A stretch of DNA of 53,199 nucleotides from contig CACNUQ010000008.1 in the NCBI GenBank assembly GCA_902623685.1, positions 1 to 53,199 on the forward strand, read 5' to 3'. Of this stretch, positions 16,411-25,830 are shown in pieces (within the stretch, counting starts at the first letter, position 1; every line of letters starts with the position of its first letter). This DNA is from an uncultured SAR86 cluster bacterium (GTDB lineage Bacteria > Pseudomonadota > Gammaproteobacteria > Magnimaribacterales > D2472). The notes under the pieces are model-generated. The model searched no databases, had not been told where the DNA came from, and was given only the letters and a program-made list of their open reading frames with translations. A program made the position numbers and the translations under genes.

Positions 16411-16500
16411 TGGCGGAGAGACAGGGATTCGAACCCTGGAAACCCGCGAAGGTTTGCTGGTTTTCAAGACCAGTGCATTCAACCGCTCTGCCATCTCTCC
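16411..16500 (-). tRNA. tRNA-Ser (anticodon UGA)
   Basis: A 90-base class II tRNA. The acceptor arms GGAGAGA and TCTCTCC pair fully, the 3' CCA is encoded, and the T arm carries GGTTCGAATCC. The anticodon loop reads CTTGAAA, giving anticodon TGA at 16464-16466, and a long variable arm AAACC-TTCGC-GGGTT is typical of tRNA-Ser. It starts 5 bases past the end of the convergent serine hydrolase gene. Confidence 0.97.
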
Positions 16501-16628: not shown

Positions 16629-19600
16629 TTAAAACTGATAGGTCAGTTGAGTAGTAATTGTTCTACCAATGAATGAAAGTCTTCTTTCAGTTTGATATCT
16701 ACCTTCAGATCCGTCATGATCTAATGGATTGTTTATCCTAACTGCAAAAGTTAAATCATCGTTTGGTGTCCAAACAAATCCTATAGTATCTAACCAATAA
16801 CTATCATATTCAGTAATTGGCTGGCCATTTTTACCTAGATATCTATCAGCTCTTATGTCGGTTTGTTGTTTATTAATCCAACCCCCGTCTATAAAGTCTG
16901 CTTGATAATATGCATAATAGTCATCGTAAGACCAAGCAACAGTTAAATCCCATAACCATTCAGGATCCGACGCATAACCAGTTTTATCAATTAAGTCAGC
17001 AGGATCACCGGAATCAGCTTGATTTCGTTTATCTTGTTGATAGCCTCTCCAACGAACTGATATATCTCCCATTGAGCCTTCATCTTGCATTAAGACTGTA
17101 GCAAGATCATGAGACCAATTTGCTCTATAGATGTAAGTAGCAAAATCTATAGTACCAGCATTACCTGCACCAACTTGGAAATCAGTAACCTGACCAGTGG
17201 CATCCCTTTGGAAGTTATTACAGAAGTTATTTGGATATGATGCAGCATCATAACAAGCTTCCATAAAATCAATAAGGCTAAATGTGGTTACATAATCTGT
17301 TAATAAGATTTCTATGTAATCAGCTGAGAAAGTAAAGTCACCATATGGCTCAAGAAAATCATATGTTGGTGTAAAAATTACACCATAAGATGTTGTTTCA
17401 CCATTTTCATCAAGCAGATTTGGATTACCTCCTCTTGTACCTTGCACAGTACCACCAGCAACAAAACTTCTAAAGTTCGTTACATCAATACCGGCAGCAA
17501 TACAGTTAGCCCTTCGATTTGCAGGAAAATCACCATCATCAACATATCTTGTATCACATGGATCAAGAGCTTGTTGAAATGATGGATTCTGTGGTCCATA
17601 CAAATCACTAATATTAGGTGATTTTGTAGTAGTCTGATCTGAGAATCTTAGAGCAATATCATCATTAACTTTCCAATATAAACTCAATGCATCTACATCA
17701 TATTTATTAGTTCTTAGAGTATTAGTGTTTTCAAGCTCCCTATAGCCATAGTCAAGCCTGACATCTTCAGCAAACGGCAAGCCTGAGACAATTGGTAATG
17801 ATAACTCTATGAATTGTGAATCAATTTCAAAGAATCCATTTGTGCTTCTAGTTTGTGACCCTCTAATTGCAACTGAATATAAAGCAAATTGATCGGCATC
17901 AAATCTTGCCTTCTCTTTTCTATTGTCATATCCAACTGCAAATTGAATTGGCCCATAAGGCAATTCAACCATAGGCACATTACCTGTTAAAGACCAATAG
18001 AATGAATCTTGATTTAATTTAGCTCCCTCATTGGTATAGGAGGTAAAGTAATCTTTAGCTGCTTGGTTATCAGGATTATTAAAGCCCATTGGGTTAAATG
18101 GTGAACAGTCGCCAGGGCTACCCAATCCAACTCCTCCACCAAGTGTTGAGTAATCTGTTTCTTGAATACCTGTAAAAGCAAGCTGATAGTCATCCTCATA
18201 GTTAAATTTACAATCAACTTCACCAGTAGCTGGGTTTATTCCATAATCAAGAGAAGCAGCCCATCTTGCAGCAACCTGAAATGGAGCTGTGCTTAAAATT
18301 CTTGTTTCGCCCCAACTTGTGCCAATGTCATATTCGTATTCTTCACCGAGCAGATAAAATGCACCTTCAAATCCTAAATTATAGAATTGAGTATTATTTT
18401 CATTCTCAAAACCATCACCTCTAAGAGTTGGAGCTAGATCTGACCAAAGTCTTTGCAAAAAAAGCGTATCACCACTTCCAAATCCGTTTGCATCCAATAT
18501 GGCCTTTGAACCTGCTGTTAAAAATGGGTCATCATAAGAAATAGGTATACTTCCTGATGTGGAGTAACAAGTTCCTCCTGCATTACAATTATCACTGTCG
18601 GCATAACCAAACCAGTAATCTGAATAATGAGCTGATGAACTTGAACCATCGTCTTCAGCAAAGAATCTATTGTTATAAATATCCAAATACATTCTATTAT
18701 TCTCATCAATATCGTACTTTACGAATAAAGAGATATTCTTTCTATCAAAGCCAGCTCTTAGAATCTTGTTGTCTTGAATGTTATATATTGAAGATCCTCT
18801 TGTGTAATAGTATCTTCCATAAGGAACGCCTGGATCCATAATTGACATGTCGCCTGGACCAGAGAAAGTGTAAAAATTTCCATCAGGGAAAGCACCTCCA
18901 TAAACACCAAAATCGCCACCAACTTCGTTATAACCATATAGGGTCATTAATCCTTCAACAGGATTAGATACAAGTGTTGGACATATATTAAGACCATTAT
19001 CACCAAATGTTCTTCTGCCTTGGGCATCTGCAAGACCCTGATCAAAGCCGTTGCTTAATCCAAGATTATATAAACTGCCCTTTTGACCAAAAATATCCTG
19101 ATCAGCATCTTGAGGATTTTCATAAAAAAACCCTGCTTCACAGTCTCGAATTCTTTGATTAGCTTGATCATAAAAAACTTGGCCAACATCTTGAACCTGA
19201 GCATTTAATACAATATTTCCTCTACCATCAGCAAAATTACCTCCGATAGTTAAATTAAAAGAATTATCTGTATCCATTCCAGCATAATCATATTGACCAA
19301 CTGAAATTTGAGCTCCTTCGAAGTCCTCTTTTAAGATGTAATTAACAACACCTGCAATGGCATCAGCACCATACACAGCTGCACCACCTACAGGAACAAT
19401 TTCAACTCTTTCAATAAGAGCAGAAGGTATATTGTTGAGATCAACAGCAAGACCTGAACCTGCTCCACCAGTTGGTGATTGAGATCCAACGAACCTCCTT
19501 CCATTAACCAAAGTTACAGTTCTAGATGATCCTAAACCAAAATTTGCAGCAACTTGTTGCCCTGCTCCTAAGCCAGACTGATCTCCAGACAAAGTATTAA

Positions 19601-19868
19601 CAGCTCCAACTTCTGGTAAATCAGTTAAACCTTCAGCAGCATTTGTATATGCTCTAGCTCTGAATTCATCGCCTGAAATAATGGTAACTGGTTGAGCCAT
19701 TTCTAATGGATTTCTTTTAATTCTAGAACCAGTAGTAATGACCTCCTCAATCGTCTCTTCGACATTCTCTTCATTTTCATCAACATCTTGAGCCACTAAT
19801 GCTAAGGTGAAAGTAGAAATAAAAAGAATAGAAAAGAATTTAAATTTATTAATTAAATCAAAATTCAT
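16629..19868 (-). CDS. TonB-dependent receptor
   Basis: An outer-membrane, energised import channel of 1,079 residues. It has a signal peptide (about 1-26), an acidic linker, a TonB-box-like segment around IEEVITTGSRIKR (41-53), a plug domain containing VTLVNGRRFVG and AVYGADAIAGVVNYI, and a beta-barrel ending in aromatic QLTYQF, the usual signal for outer-membrane insertion. Paired cysteines in presumed surface loops (CDTRY...NC, CYDAA...NFC) are typical of large receptors of marine Gammaproteobacteria. GGGAG lies 8-9 bases before the ATG. It is divergent from an APC permease-amidinohydrolase-Rieske operon, which may use what it imports. The ligand is unknown. Confidence 0.95.
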   Translation of the reverse strand: MNFDLINKFKFFSILFISTFTLALVAQDVDENEENVEETIEEVITTGSRIKRNPLEMAQPVTIISGDEFRARAYTNAAEGLTDLPEVGAVNTLSGDQSGLGAGQQVAANFGLGSSRTVTLVNGRRFVGSQSPTGGAGSGLAVDLNNIPSALIERVEIVPVGGAAVYGADAIAGVVNYILKEDFEGAQISVGQYDYAGMDTDNSFNLTIGGNFADGRGNIVLNAQVQDVGQVFYDQANQRIRDCEAGFFYENPQDADQDIFGQKGSLYNLGLSNGFDQGLADAQGRRTFGDNGLNICPTLVSNPVEGLMTLYGYNEVGGDFGVYGGAFPDGNFYTFSGPGDMSIMDPGVPYGRYYYTRGSSIYNIQDNKILRAGFDRKNISLFVKYDIDENNRMYLDIYNNRFFAEDDGSSSSAHYSDYWFGYADSDNCNAGGTCYSTSGSIPISYDDPFLTAGSKAILDANGFGSGDTLFLQRLWSDLAPTLRGDGFENENNTQFYNLGFEGAFYLLGEEYEYDIGTSWGETRILSTAPFQVAARWAASLDYGINPATGEVDCKFNYEDDYQLAFTGIQETDYSTLGGGVGLGSPGDCSPFNPMGFNNPDNQAAKDYFTSYTNEGAKLNQDSFYWSLTGNVPMVELPYGPIQFAVGYDNRKEKARFDADQFALYSVAIRGSQTRSTNGFFEIDSQFIELSLPIVSGLPFAEDVRLDYGYRELENTNTLRTNKYDVDALSLYWKVNDDIALRFSDQTTTKSPNISDLYGPQNPSFQQALDPCDTRYVDDGDFPANRRANCIAAGIDVTNFRSFVAGGTVQGTRGGNPNLLDENGETTSYGVIFTPTYDFLEPYGDFTFSADYIEILLTDYVTTFSLIDFMEACYDAASYPNNFCNNFQRDATGQVTDFQVGAGNAGTIDFATYIYRANWSHDLATVLMQDEGSMGDISVRWRGYQQDKRNQADSGDPADLIDKTGYASDPEWLWDLTVAWSYDDYYAYYQADFIDGGWINKQQTDIRADRYLGKNGQPITEYDSYWLDTIGFVWTPNDDLTFAVRINNPLDHDGSEGRYQTERRLSFIGRTITTQLTYQF

Positions 19869-20141
19869 AGAAAAATCTCCCTAATTTTTAAGCTATTAGT
19901 ACATTTAACTATATCTATGAGCATTTATAAAGGATTTAGTATTTATTCTTTCAATGAATAACACTTTAAATACTTTATTGATAGGGTTTATAACTAATTA
20001 AAAAAAATTATTAATTTAATAAATATCTGAATTTTTATAAAAAGTTAACTATCTTTAATCTAATATTCTCTTACAGATCACTAAATTTAAATGGGAGAGT
20101 CTTATTTAAAAATCCTTATTTTTTAGGTGTATTATCATTTT

Positions 20142-21434
20142 ATGGATTCATATCAACATAGAGTTATTGGATTTTGGAGAGGATGGTCAATAGCAGTAGG
20201 TTGCGCTATTGGTTCAGGCATTTTTATGATGCCTACATTGTTAGCACCGTTTGGGATGCTTGGATTTTTTGGTTGGCTTATAGCTGGGCTAGGATCAATC
20301 TTGGTTGCATTAACAATGGCTCGGCTGGTAATAAGAATGCCAAAGACTGGAGGTCCTTATGTTTATGTCAATGAAGCACTGGGTAGTTTTTCTGGCTTTA
20401 TAATTGCTTGGACTTACTGGGTTGCATGTATTTCTGCAATTGCAGGAATATCAATTGCTTTTGTTGACTATTTAGGTTTTTTTATTCCAAAAATCAGTGA
20501 TTTGCCAATTTATTCTTTGATTGCCTCAATGTTGTTGGTTTGGGCTGTTATATTTCTAAATATTAAAAGCATAGAAAACAGTAGTAGATTTCAGTTAATT
20601 TCAACTCTATTAAAATTATTACCTCTCTTATTAATTATTTTTCTTGGCGCCTCAAATTTTACAGTTAGTAACTTACCGGAGTTTAATCCAACTAACCATC
20701 ACCCTATTTCATTACTTGGTACTGTCACGACCTTAGTGATGTGGTCGTTTATTGGAATTGAAACTGCAACTGTTCCAGCAGACAATGTAATTAATCCTAA
20801 AGAAACTATTCCAAAAGTTTTGATTGCATCTGTTTTAACAATTCTAACTCTTTATATCTTTGTAAGTTTTGCGATTGCAGTAATAGTTCCACCCGATGAA
20901 CTGTTAGACTCCTCTGCTCCATTTGCTTTAGCTGCAAGCAAAATTTTAGGAACTACAGGCGGCACACTAATTGCTATTGGAGCTCTTATTTCAACTTTAG
21001 GATCATTGAATGCAAATACACTTACAGCAGGTAATTTAAGTTTAGCAGCAGCTAGAGATGGTTTACTTCCAGCTAAATTTATATCGCTTACAAAATCTGG
21101 GACTCCTATATTTACATATCTGTTATCAGGCTCATTTGTAAGTGTTCTATTACTGCTGAATTATACAAAAGGTATCATAAATGCTTTTGTTTTTATGGCC
21201 ATGCTCTCAACATTATCCACTTTAATAGCTTATGCATTTTGTGCGATAGCTGAATTAAAATTTGCGCATACAAATAAAAAAACTCAGCAAAAGAAGTACG
21301 CTTTTTTGATATCATTTGGAACCTTTTTATATGCAATTTTTGCTATTTGGGGAGCAGGCATAGAGATGATTATGTATTCAATTTTTCTAATTTTAATTGG
21401 ATCACCTGTATATCTGTTTAAAACTAAAATATGA
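20142..21434 (+). CDS. APC-superfamily amino acid permease
   Basis: A 430-residue inner-membrane transporter with about 12 helices. The first helix contains AVGCAIGSGIFMMP, the glycine-rich unwound segment that binds the substrate amino or carboxyl group in amino acid-polyamine-organocation carriers; helix 6 contains MWSFIGIETATVPADN, the matching second half. It is closest to arginine/agmatine- and basic amino acid-type members. I use the ATG at 20142; an in-frame GTG at 20127 would add MYYHF but lacks a ribosome site. Its stop overlaps the next ATG by 4 bases (ATGA), which ties it to the amidinohydrolase. Confidence 0.9.
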   Translation: MDSYQHRVIGFWRGWSIAVGCAIGSGIFMMPTLLAPFGMLGFFGWLIAGLGSILVALTMARLVIRMPKTGGPYVYVNEALGSFSGFIIAWTYWVACISAIAGISIAFVDYLGFFIPKISDLPIYSLIASMLLVWAVIFLNIKSIENSSRFQLISTLLKLLPLLLIIFLGASNFTVSNLPEFNPTNHHPISLLGTVTTLVMWSFIGIETATVPADNVINPKETIPKVLIASVLTILTLYIFVSFAIAVIVPPDELLDSSAPFALAASKILGTTGGTLIAIGALISTLGSLNANTLTAGNLSLAAARDGLLPAKFISLTKSGTPIFTYLLSGSFVSVLLLLNYTKGIINAFVFMAMLSTLSTLIAYAFCAIAELKFAHTNKKTQQKKYAFLISFGTFLYAIFAIWGAGIEMIMYSIFLILIGSPVYLFKTKI

Positions 21435-22297
21435 ACCAGTTAAATGAATACTCTAAAATAAGTGAGGTTGCTATCAGGTCCCCACTTTCAAGCTTTGTCA
21501 ATGATGAAAAAATTACAAATGAATGGGCATCACTTAGATTTCATGCAAAACCGGATCTAAAAAAAGCAATTATTGAATACAATTACTTTAGGAGTTTTCT
21601 TGAAGAAGATGGTATCAAGATTATTGAGCTCCCCTCATCTGATAGGTTAACTTTAGATAGTATTTATACCAGAGATAGTATTTTGGTATGTGACTCAGGT
21701 GTAATTCTATGCAATATGGGAAGATCATCCAGAACACCTGAAGCTGAGGAGAATTTTAAAACTCTTGCAAATAAAGGTTATAAAATCGCAGGCCAAATAA
21801 AATCACCTGGGACCCTTGAAGGTGGTGATTTTATCTGGATAGATAATAAAAATGCTGCAGTTGGTTTGGGGCCAAGAACTAATTCTGAAGGAATTCGTCA
21901 ACTCAAAGAAATTTTAGGACCAGAAATTGATCTTCATATTGTAGATTTGCCTGATCCAGATCATCCAGATGATGTCTTGCATTTAATGTCCATAATTTCA
22001 CCATTAGATAAAGATCTTGCTGTTATTTATAAACCTTTTATGCCTGAATCATTTTTAAAATGGCTCACTAAATTAGGAATAGAATTTGTTGAAGTTAGTG
22101 AAGTTGAATATCCTTTAATGGGATGCAACATTTTGGCAACAGCTCCAAGATCAATTATCATGCTTGAAAATTTACCTGAAATTAAAAATAAACTTAAAAA
22201 TAATGGATGCAAAATTCGTTTATATAAAGGCGATGAAATTAGTCGAAAAGGTGAAGGTGGACCTACATGCTTAACAAGGCCGCTAATAAGATACTAA
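21431..22297 (+). CDS. Amidinotransferase-fold hydrolase, DDAH/arginine deiminase-like
   Basis: A 288-residue single-domain member of the guanidino-modifying superfamily. Such enzymes attack a guanidinium carbon with a cysteine; DDAH converts methylated arginine to citrulline plus methylamines, and arginine deiminase releases ammonia. Visible landmarks are YTRDS near residue 79, LEGGDF near 129-134, a catalytic histidine candidate in DVLHLMS and the nucleophile in GGPTCLTRPL (C280) near the C-terminus. The length fits DDAH (about 255-290) better than arginine deiminase (about 410). It is coupled to a basic-amino-acid-type permease and followed after 3 bases by a Rieske oxygenase. Confidence 0.85.
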   Translation: MNQLNEYSKISEVAIRSPLSSFVNDEKITNEWASLRFHAKPDLKKAIIEYNYFRSFLEEDGIKIIELPSSDRLTLDSIYTRDSILVCDSGVILCNMGRSSRTPEAEENFKTLANKGYKIAGQIKSPGTLEGGDFIWIDNKNAAVGLGPRTNSEGIRQLKEILGPEIDLHIVDLPDPDHPDDVLHLMSIISPLDKDLAVIYKPFMPESFLKWLTKLGIEFVEVSEVEYPLMGCNILATAPRSIIMLENLPEIKNKLKNNGCKIRLYKGDEISRKGEGGPTCLTRPLIRY

Positions 22298-22300
22298 CGT

Positions 22301-23434
22301 ATGAAAAAAGTACATAGAAGTTTGCCAGGATGGACTTATACGAGTGAGGCATTTTTTGAGCTCGAAAAAACTGAATTAATTCTTAAAAATTGGCAATTGG
22401 TTTGCCATATTTCTAACATACCTAAGGCAGGAGATTATTTTACATTTGAAATTTTTAACGAAAGAGTATTTGTTATTAGAGGTGAAGACAAAAATGTAAG
22501 AGCTTTTCATAACTTCTGTTCTCACAGAGGAACTAAGCTTATTGATGAAACATCTGGAACCTGCAATAGAAAAATAACATGTCCCTATCATGCATGGGGA
22601 TATGATTTTAATGGCAACCTCATAAAAGTACCTTACGAAGATCAATTTATAGATTTCAATAAAAATGATCACAAATTAAAAAGTGTTGAAATGGAAATTT
22701 TTCAAGGTTTTATCTTTGTAAAGTTAATTGAGTCAGACGTTCCAAGCGTTAATAGTCAATTTGCTCCATACCTTGACGAAATAGAACAATACAAACTTAA
22801 TGAAATGAAGCCGCTTGGAAGAATAACGATGAGACCAAGGAATGTTAACTGGAAGCAGATTGCTGATAACTATGTTGATGCTCTTCATATTCCTGTTGCT
22901 CATCCCGGATTATCTGGGCTAGTTGGCAAAAGCTATGGCGTAGAAGTATCCCCTAATAATGGATATATTCATAAGATGTGGGGAGATGGAAAGAATTCAC
23001 GTGAAAAAAATCTTTCAAACAAACTTTATGATAAATACTTGCCGTACATGAACCATCTTCCAAAAAACAAACAAAGGTACTGGGTTTATTATAGACTTTG
23101 GCCAAATCTTGCATTTGATATATATCCTGAGCAAATGGATTTCATGCAATTCATACCCATAGATGCAAAAACAACAATGATCAGGGAAATTGCATATGCT
23201 CTTCCTGATGATAGAAGAGAGACTAAAGCTGCTCAATATTTAAATTGGAGAATTAATAGACAAGTTAATAACGAAGATACGAAATTGATTAATCTTGTTC
23301 AAGAAGGTATGAATACAAACTACTTTAAATCAGGCCCGCTTGCATCTTCTGAAGTATGCTTAATTGATAGTGCTAATAAAATAAGAGAAGCCATTCCATT
23401 ATCTTCTAATGAGACAGAACCAAAAGAACTATAA
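22301..23434 (+). CDS. Rieske non-haem iron oxygenase, alpha subunit
   Basis: A 377-residue terminal oxygenase that uses O2 and electrons from a separate reductase, absent here, to hydroxylate or demethylate a small molecule. The Rieske [2Fe-2S] ligands are CSH (C73, H75) and CPYH (C94, H97). The mononuclear iron site is D193-A-L-H196 with H201 and probably D326. D193 matches the bridging Asp of classical ring-hydroxylating enzymes; carnitine oxygenase CntA, as I recall, has Glu there. It closes a three-gene unit with the permease and the DDAH-like gene, which suggests that it acts on a product or relative of their substrate. Confidence 0.93.
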   Translation: MKKVHRSLPGWTYTSEAFFELEKTELILKNWQLVCHISNIPKAGDYFTFEIFNERVFVIRGEDKNVRAFHNFCSHRGTKLIDETSGTCNRKITCPYHAWGYDFNGNLIKVPYEDQFIDFNKNDHKLKSVEMEIFQGFIFVKLIESDVPSVNSQFAPYLDEIEQYKLNEMKPLGRITMRPRNVNWKQIADNYVDALHIPVAHPGLSGLVGKSYGVEVSPNNGYIHKMWGDGKNSREKNLSNKLYDKYLPYMNHLPKNKQRYWVYYRLWPNLAFDIYPEQMDFMQFIPIDAKTTMIREIAYALPDDRRETKAAQYLNWRINRQVNNEDTKLINLVQEGMNTNYFKSGPLASSEVCLIDSANKIREAIPLSSNETEPKEL

Positions 23435-25290: not shown

Positions 25291-25830
25291 TTAGATAGTA
25301 TGAGGAGCTGCAAAAAACTTTTTAATTAATGGCTCGAATGATTCTAATGTATCAGTTTTATAATTTGGGTCGAATGCTGCTTGATCCCATTCATCTGTGA
25401 ATTCAAGAGCTTTTTTATACCATGGCTCGTTTACATATTGTTTACGTAAATCTTGAGGTTTACCCATGTAGTGATAATAATGCTCTCCTTGAAAGTCCTG
25501 ATGAGTTCTAATTATGTGATACGCATCTTCGCTAACATAAGGTTTTATCATCTCTGCTGCGATTTGACCATGATTGGGAACGTTGATGACCTTGCCTATG
25601 TCATGAATTAAACTAATAAGTATCATTTCGTCATCCGCACCAGCCCTTCTTGCCATTGTTGCTGTTTGCAATGCATGATGTAATTGATCTGTTCCAAAGC
25701 CAAGTGTTAAATCTTTTGCTTGCTTTAGCATTGAAATAATTCTTTTTGGCATATCAAATATGTGAGGCATATGTTCCTCGCTAATATGCTGCCACTCCTC
25801 TTGAGTGCTTTGATCCATTCTTGTAAACAT
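25291..25830 (-). CDS. HD-domain protein with MIOX/PhnZ-type diiron site
   Basis: A 179-residue HD-fold protein that looks like a small oxygenase rather than a phosphohydrolase. It shows H52 (LHHALQ), H76-D77 (LIHDIGK), H87 (PNHGQ), H110 (IRTHQD) and D149 (EWDQAAF). These align with the six ligands of the mixed-valent diiron centre in inositol oxygenase and PhnZ, as I recall those families. K80 follows as HDIGK, as in MIOX (the inositol-contacting lysine), where PhnZ has His. PhnZ cleaves the C-P bond of a hydroxyphosphonate; MIOX is longer (about 280). A phosphohydrolase role remains possible. Neighbours are cysE (29 bases downstream) and a DDN-like gene. Confidence 0.75.
   Translation of the reverse strand: MFTRMDQSTQEEWQHISEEHMPHIFDMPKRIISMLKQAKDLTLGFGTDQLHHALQTATMARRAGADDEMILISLIHDIGKVINVPNHGQIAAEMIKPYVSEDAYHIIRTHQDFQGEHYYHYMGKPQDLRKQYVNEPWYKKALEFTDEWDQAAFDPNYKTDTLESFEPLIKKFFAAPHTI

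Follow-up and report, generated by a model that had tools for sequence, protein, structure and literature searches.

Saxitoxin clusters pair SxtG, an amidinotransferase of the GME fold, with the Rieske oxygenase SxtT. The operon described here shares that combination of a GME-fold enzyme and a Rieske oxygenase, though the saxitoxin clusters are biosynthetic, and SxtG and SxtT are only distant matches to our proteins (40 bits for the saxitoxin Rieske vs 135 bits for the carnitine monooxygenase CntA). In marine Synechococcus, the guanidinase cluster has a Rieske protein gene downstream (PMC10119275) and is, likewise, a marine organic-nitrogen cluster in which a guanidine hydrolase is paired with a Rieske gene; it differs in having a SpeB-type ureohydrolase that acts on free guanidine, an ABC transporter, and other genes in another order. 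For the single proteins, the known points of comparison are bacterial dimethylarginine dimethylaminohydrolase (DDAH, which hydrolyses ADMA/NMMA to citrulline; P. aeruginosa, PDB 1h70/3rhy) and arginine deiminase (ADI) for the hydrolase, the arginine/agmatine antiporter AdiC for the permease, and CntA (group V Rieske oxygenases) for the oxygenase. Neither a permease–hydrolase–Rieske trio nor a pathway of this kind is described in the literature searched. The operon is genuine and constitutes a variant, as yet undescribed, of families that are known; we infer its function, and the set looks like an undescribed way of using modified amino acids as food.

The window, i.e., the whole 53,199-nucleotide stretch analysed, is from SAR86, and the operon genes (permease–hydrolase–Rieske) occupy 3.3 kb of it, with these features:

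16629..19868, minus strand: TonB-dependent receptor (TBDR), divergent neighbour (Pfam Plug domain)
20110..20141, plus strand: stretch immediately 5' of the permease ATG, with the candidate -10 element GTGTATTATCA (alignment of SAR86 upstream regions)
20142..21434, plus strand: AdiC-like APC-family amino-acid permease/antiporter, 430 aa (Pfam AA_permease_2, 1.5e-45)
21431..22297, plus strand: DDAH/ADI-like (GME superfamily) cysteine hydrolase, 288 aa (Pfam ADI/DDAH)
22301..23434, plus strand: Rieske non-haem iron oxygenase alpha subunit, 377 aa (Pfam Rieske and Ring_hydroxyl_A)

The permease ATG at 20142 aligns in SAR86 relatives and is thus a conserved start (the reading frame could be extended to a GTG at 20127), so the divergent gap spans 19869–20141, the 273 bases given by an earlier, sequence-only reading. 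The 4-base permease/hydrolase overlap and 3-base hydrolase/Rieske gap that it reported are likewise correct, and the co-expression of the three genes that it proposed is likely. Conserved in the SAR86 alignment before the permease ATG, GTGTATTATCA may act as a -10 element, which would leave the permease with a very short leader or none; upstream of the operon, where riboswitches or other RNA control were sought, the one credible Rfam match is a tRNA. The same reading had also suggested the TBDR as a possible outer-membrane importer for the system. We rejected it as a pathway member, since this receptor was not seen at the place in any of the 15 SAR86 relatives and, in the window, adjoins tRNA-Ser within a slot of variable content. 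Because it does not recur, the "locus" of 7 kb makes better sense as an operon of 3.3 kb next to a neighbour with no relation to it. In 14 Porticoccaceae genomes, a TonB receptor of another family is encoded divergently upstream, so an outer-membrane link is possible there.

The hydrolase has the GME alpha/beta-propeller fold (model pLDDT 75; 1h70, ADI, AGAT, and NnhA all match), with P. aeruginosa DDAH as best Foldseek match (E 4.9e-15) and nearly level structure alignments to ADI (Z 24.8), NnhA (Z 24.5), and DDAH (Z 23.3), while the active-site loops of the model (80–83, 97–101, and 268–282) are of low confidence, under pLDDT 50. Beyond the fold, it shares with DDAH residues at positions of described substrate and catalytic roles (PMC11659421): DDAH D60, D66, R85, E114, R132, H162, and C249 correspond to D76, D82, R101, E130, R149, H184, and C280 in 42/42 sequences. 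These comprise the catalytic Cys-His-Glu set (C280/H184/E130, with C280, singled out earlier from the sequence, at the catalytic-Cys position), two carboxylate arginines (R101, R149), the amine Asp (D76), and the inner guanidine Asp (D82). Identity is about 23–25% to DDAH and at most about 25% to any characterised enzyme; NCBIfam dimethylargininase models score far under their cut-offs (85 vs 340 bits and 55 vs 450 bits), as do ADI models (51 vs 489 bits); and the hydrolase is shorter than ADI (288 vs about 410 aa), with which it shares fold and catalytic set. The position that holds the second guanidine-binding Asp in ADI (D280; the first, D166, is present as D82) and Lys in DDAH (K164) is Met (M186) in 44/44 sequences. 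DDAH E65 is R81, which yields an ADI-like TRD motif (R81-D82, in alignment to M. penetrans ADI), so ADI-like activity is still conceivable.

For the permease, the best solved relative is AdiC (186 bits, the next 92 bits; 30% identity over 406 aligned residues), and the backbone-binding and gate residues S26, G27, W202, I205, E208, Y93, and Y365 of AdiC are kept. However, W293, which lies under the guanidinium in AdiC, is Asn in 40/41 permeases, N101 is I/V/A/C (mostly Ile/Val), and N22 is Cys. In AdiC, W293 is needed for arginine, and non-aromatic replacement abolishes arginine transport (PMC4970712). The AdiC backbone site is thus retained in the permease, whereas its guanidinium Trp is not, and a modified amino acid of arginine type agrees with the residue patterns of hydrolase and permease alike. 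The hydrolase probably splits arginine-like compounds; retention of R101, R149, D76, and D82 together with replacement of the ADI Asp by Met would point to an arginine that carries a substituent on its end nitrogen, e.g., N-methylarginine, over plain arginine. The guanidino substrate suggested earlier thus gains support from the residue-level match and the AdiC-like partner. Plain arginine catabolism, with the hydrolase as an arginine deiminase, the permease as an arginine/ornithine- or arginine/citrulline-type exchanger, and the Rieske protein unrelated to the step, could draw on ADI structures that align as well as DDAH, on the TRD motif, on AdiC being an arginine transporter, and on ArgG-like proteins that could recycle citrulline. 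Against this stand the invariant Met at the second ADI Asp, the loss of the Trp essential for arginine transport, and the low ADI model scores, and we consider it unlikely.

The third protein is a Rieske alpha subunit, with cluster ligands C73/H75/C94/H97 (CxH/CxxH), iron ligands H196/H201/D326 (2-His-1-Asp), and bridging D193 in 24/24 sequences; its AlphaFold model has a pLDDT of 33. CntA is the nearest solved Rieske protein (135 bits) and shares the cluster and iron ligands. Y191 corresponds in 24/24 sequences to CntA Y203, the quaternary-amine Tyr (PMC7948474), and so matches the aromatic residue of clade Va (Asn in Vb) within group V. The two differ in the bridging acid (Asp vs Glu205 in CntA) and in the Cys206/Cys209 pair; such a Cys-X-X-Cys pair beside the iron occurs in some group V members (PMC10952381), and here A194 (or T) and I197 stand instead. 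Other pocket residues are changed as well, such that little of the CntA substrate pocket is kept. Every carrier genome checked except one, all of them incomplete drafts (81–93% where stated), yielded no CntB-type reductase: the window's genome shows no CntB/GbcB-type FMN/ferredoxin reductase, its sole PF00970 protein being NqrF, and 7/8 further carriers likewise have a single PF00970 match, of that length and with the profile covered in the same partial way. None of the 16 genomes that were searched in the genus has the known dimethylamine (DMA) monooxygenase family, so any dimethylamine released would have no known oxidation route. Dimethylamine itself, earlier put forward as a Rieske target, was set aside because nothing speaks for it, although absence of that family is by itself not exclusion.

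All hydrolase-bearing genomes of the window's SAR86 genus (16/16) have the three-gene set, and so do 9 Porticoccaceae/SAR92 genomes, where all 9 Rieske copies are adjacent; this recurrence takes the operon far beyond chance. Within the SAR86 genus, the Rieske gene occurs in 16/16 hydrolase-bearing vs 0/10 hydrolase-free genomes. The separation of these genes in other genomes, named beforehand as grounds for doubting the system, was seen in part: 19/28 hydrolase-bearing Porticoccaceae genomes lack the Rieske gene. Given those 19 genomes, permease–hydrolase is the core of the system. The two genes are adjacent in 43/43 genomes where both were read (plus L059), and likewise in the paralogue with 33% identity, which is accompanied by a biuret-hydrolase-like isochorismatase. 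In the permease+hydrolase tree, all placed Rieske-bearing copies fall in one clade (support 98), and the Rieske gene is probably an add-on gained a single time next to the core. The SAR86 copies are nested within those of Porticoccaceae, which suggests gene transfer.

The genes around the Rieske-less Porticoccaceae copies are either unrelated, such as thiolases and an AMP ligase, or form the conserved set c9-c8-c11, which comprises a protein lacking any Pfam match, a metallo-beta-lactamase-fold hydrolase, and a beta-lactamase-fold esterase. These neighbours point to no substrate and were rejected as substrate clues. One SAR86-family genome carries the Rieske gene without the hydrolase, beside a flavin monooxygenase.

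This distribution bears on a second alternative, in which the Rieske enzyme acts first, N-demethylating or hydroxylating a guanidino amino acid taken up in quaternary or N-methylated form (betaine-type) before the hydrolase opens the guanidine. The CntA relationship and the conserved Y191 favour such an order, as does a Rieske relative at 33% identity that adjoins an aminotransferase, TMA/histamine-dehydrogenase-like genes, an agmatinase, and a glutamine-synthetase-like gene. Yet, with 19 Porticoccaceae genomes that have permease and hydrolase but not this Rieske gene, the enzyme cannot be an obligatory first step, and the Cys pair and other CntA pocket residues are absent; we regard this order as less probable still than plain arginine. 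A third alternative assigns the hydrolase to a branch of the GME superfamily whose substrate is no amino acid, as with NnhA and 2-nitroimidazole, and has the operon degrade a ring or other nitrogen compound. It would accord with NnhA among the closest folds and the low identity to characterised enzymes, but is very improbable: both carboxylate arginines and the Asp that binds the amine have been lost from NnhA (PMC11659421), all three are invariant here, and the hydrolase is paired with a permease for amino acids in which the backbone site is retained.

We put at about even the chance that the operon imports and degrades a modified amino acid that resembles arginine. On this model, the permease would carry an amino acid with a guanidine or amidine side chain across the inner membrane, probably swapping it for the product or a related amino acid. 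C280, aided by H184 and E130, would then attack the guanidine carbon to give an amine and a ureido (citrulline-like) amino acid, as expected from the family. Import and hydrolysis would form the core. As an add-on in SAR86 and part of the Porticoccaceae, the Rieske enzyme may oxidise a further bond, most likely N-methyl or C–N to go by its nearest relatives, whether of the substrate itself, of its ureido product, or of the amine set free; this is the weakest step. Points counted against the model are the low-confidence loops, the R81 TRD motif, the missing DMA route, the scant CntA pocket, the 19/28 genomes without Rieske, and the one genome with Rieske and no hydrolase. The fuller proposal—SAR86/SAR92 catabolism of methylated or modified arginines by a new Met-bearing GME subfamily, a re-specified AdiC-like exchanger, and a Rieske enzyme that falls outside group V and has no need of a CntB-type reductase—is tentative, and we would not expect all of it to hold.

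Of the uncultured heterotrophs in the surface ocean, SAR86 bacteria rank with the most abundant, and little is known of their diet. A conserved SAR86/SAR92 operon for an unusual amino acid poses a concrete, testable substrate question, with proteins that can be assayed directly. If the proposal is true, modified arginine, e.g., from decaying protein, would return to the microbial loop, and if the substrate is methylarginine, the operon would tie the turnover of protein to the cycling of methylamine and nitrogen in the sea.

We found permease, hydrolase and Rieske genes in that order and nearly touching in every hydrolase-bearing genome of the window's genus (16/16). Hydrolase and Rieske ortholog occur in the same 16 of its 26 genomes, the other 10 having neither. 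The positions of the four genes (TonB receptor to Rieske) proposed by the sequence-only reading proved correct against gene calls in the window, which belongs to a 1.31-Mb SAR86 draft genome (82% complete); a tRNA and an HD-domain gene are listed with them:

16411-16500, minus strand, tRNA-Ser(UGA), just beyond the TonB receptor
16629-19868, minus strand, TonB receptor
20142-21434, plus strand, permease
21431-22297, plus strand, DDAH/ADI-like cysteine hydrolase (288 aa)
22301-23434, plus strand, Rieske protein
25291-25830, minus strand, HD-domain protein with weak similarity to PhnZ-type phosphonate oxygenases, retained near the operon in SAR86 relatives

The permease start was set at ATG 20142, not the longer GTG frame, because the same ATG aligned in SAR86 relatives, most of which carry GTGTATTATCA or a close variant directly 5' of it. 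The divergent gap is therefore 273 bases, as first described, and the 4-base permease/hydrolase overlap and the Rieske gene 3 bases further on were likewise confirmed.

Beyond this genus, no further hydrolases above about 30% identity were found among 369 genomes sampled across the class. In the Porticoccaceae (112 genomes; the family of SAR92 strain H921), the hydrolase occurs in 28 genomes and the Rieske in 9, always directly 3' of the hydrolase (9/9; in G446 the hydrolase frame is broken). The proposed three-gene set thus stands in all SAR86-genus carriers and these nine genomes, but not in the 19 of 28 hydrolase-bearing Porticoccaceae that lack the Rieske; the core is therefore the permease–hydrolase pair, with the Rieske as an add-on. 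Directly after the pair, 14 Rieske-less Porticoccaceae genomes (loci L154-L173) carry conserved genes for a protein without Pfam match (c9), a metallo-beta-lactamase-fold hydrolase (c8) and a beta-lactamase-fold esterase (c11), a count in which some contigs stop inside the set and c8 is missing in G454. Genome G031 lacks the hydrolase but has a Rieske ortholog (67%), with a flavin monooxygenase-like gene immediately 3' of it (L147:5512-8183); the enzyme may serve another purpose there.

The TonB receptor had been read as part of the system, which was not borne out: it was found at this place in none of 15 relatives, one contig ending too early to tell. Across relatives, the stretch equivalent to 16411-16500 through 19868 holds two small genes (in the receptor's place in 11 of 15), an integrase remnant plus uncharacterised ORFs between tRNA and permease (one tRNA-Ser-bearing relative; L054 1585-6016) or other genes, and tRNA-Ser lies at the same place in 12/13. 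The receptor therefore occupies a variable, tRNA-linked slot. As 14 Porticoccaceae genomes have a different receptor family divergent and upstream of the permease, an outer-membrane step may exist there.

Sequence searches with the hydrolase ranked DDAH first and ADI next, all far below curated cut-offs. The GME fold is seen in its predicted model (pLDDT 75), with P. aeruginosa DDAH as best Foldseek match and close to level Z-scores for ADI, DDAH and NnhA (a GME enzyme acting on 2-nitroimidazole). With P. aeruginosa DDAH mapped onto the family as reference, 42/42 sequences retain the catalytic set, both arginines for the carboxylate, the aspartate for the amine and the inner aspartate for the guanidine, and Met stands at the ADI-Asp/DDAH-Lys position in 44/44, paralogues included; in DDAH, this Lys gives room for the dimethylamino group (PMC11659421). 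The residue pattern points to a site fitting an alpha-amino acid backbone with an altered side-chain end, for which an N-substituted arginine would be the simplest reading, though not a proven one. The nearest solved relative of the permease is the arginine/agmatine antiporter AdiC (186 bits; next 92 bits), whose backbone site (S26, G27, W202, I205) and gate residues it keeps, but not W293, N101 or N22; non-aromatic W293 replacements abolish arginine transport by AdiC (PMC4970712). With the backbone site kept but W293 lost, the permease agrees with the hydrolase on a substrate that is an amino acid and probably not plain arginine.

The Rieske protein has every cluster and iron ligand, with Asp as bridging acid, and its nearest solved protein is carnitine monooxygenase (CntA). 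Like group V clade Va (quaternary amines), it keeps the marker aromatic residue, as Y191; unlike CntA, it lacks the Cys pair and does not keep the remaining CntA pocket (PMC7948474, PMC10952381). By these tests, its sequence places it as a Rieske oxygenase near, yet outside, group V. No CntB-type partner reductase was found in the window's genome, where NqrF alone represents that domain family; 7/8 further carrier genomes have a single match of the same kind. The electrons are probably supplied by a different chain. A 33%-identity Rieske relative lies in an amine-catabolism neighbourhood of genome G417, with an aminotransferase, TMA/histamine-dehydrogenase-like proteins, agmatinase and a glutamine-synthetase-like enzyme; two DDAH-family genes lie at a distance of some 8-20 kb. 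This neighbourhood favours an amine or N-methyl substrate for the Rieske. The large amine cluster of L202 and L203 (G417:C105:38000-72000) comprises two DDAH-family genes, two TMA/histamine-dehydrogenase-like genes, the distant Rieske relative, agmatinase and glutamine-synthetase-like genes.

Judging by residue patterns, the permease would import a modified arginine-like amino acid, probably by exchange, and the hydrolase would strip its end amine to leave a ureido amino acid; nearest relatives and gene order suggest that the Rieske, where present, would oxidise an N-methyl or C-N bond. Two Porticoccaceae genomes carry a paralogous permease–hydrolase pair (33% identity) in which a biuret-hydrolase-like isochorismatase replaces the Rieske (L174:6220-9100, L175). 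This fits further breakdown of the ureido product, and the set makes a second, related system whose ureido-cleaving step is likely. A guanidine-group enzyme also stands beside a Rieske protein in saxitoxin clusters. Marine Synechococcus has such a pairing in its guanidinase cluster (PMC10119275). The operon itself joins known families in a combination not met in the literature searched, largely without subscription journals, in line with the original statement that no described pathway with it was known.

When permease and hydrolase are combined in one tree, SAR86 copies branch from within Porticoccaceae; the Rieske-bearing copies, as far as they could be placed, all form one clade (support 98), with inner supports (51-58) too low to order losses. 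These placements suggest that the Rieske joined the operon once, and that SAR86 obtained the operon from Porticoccaceae.
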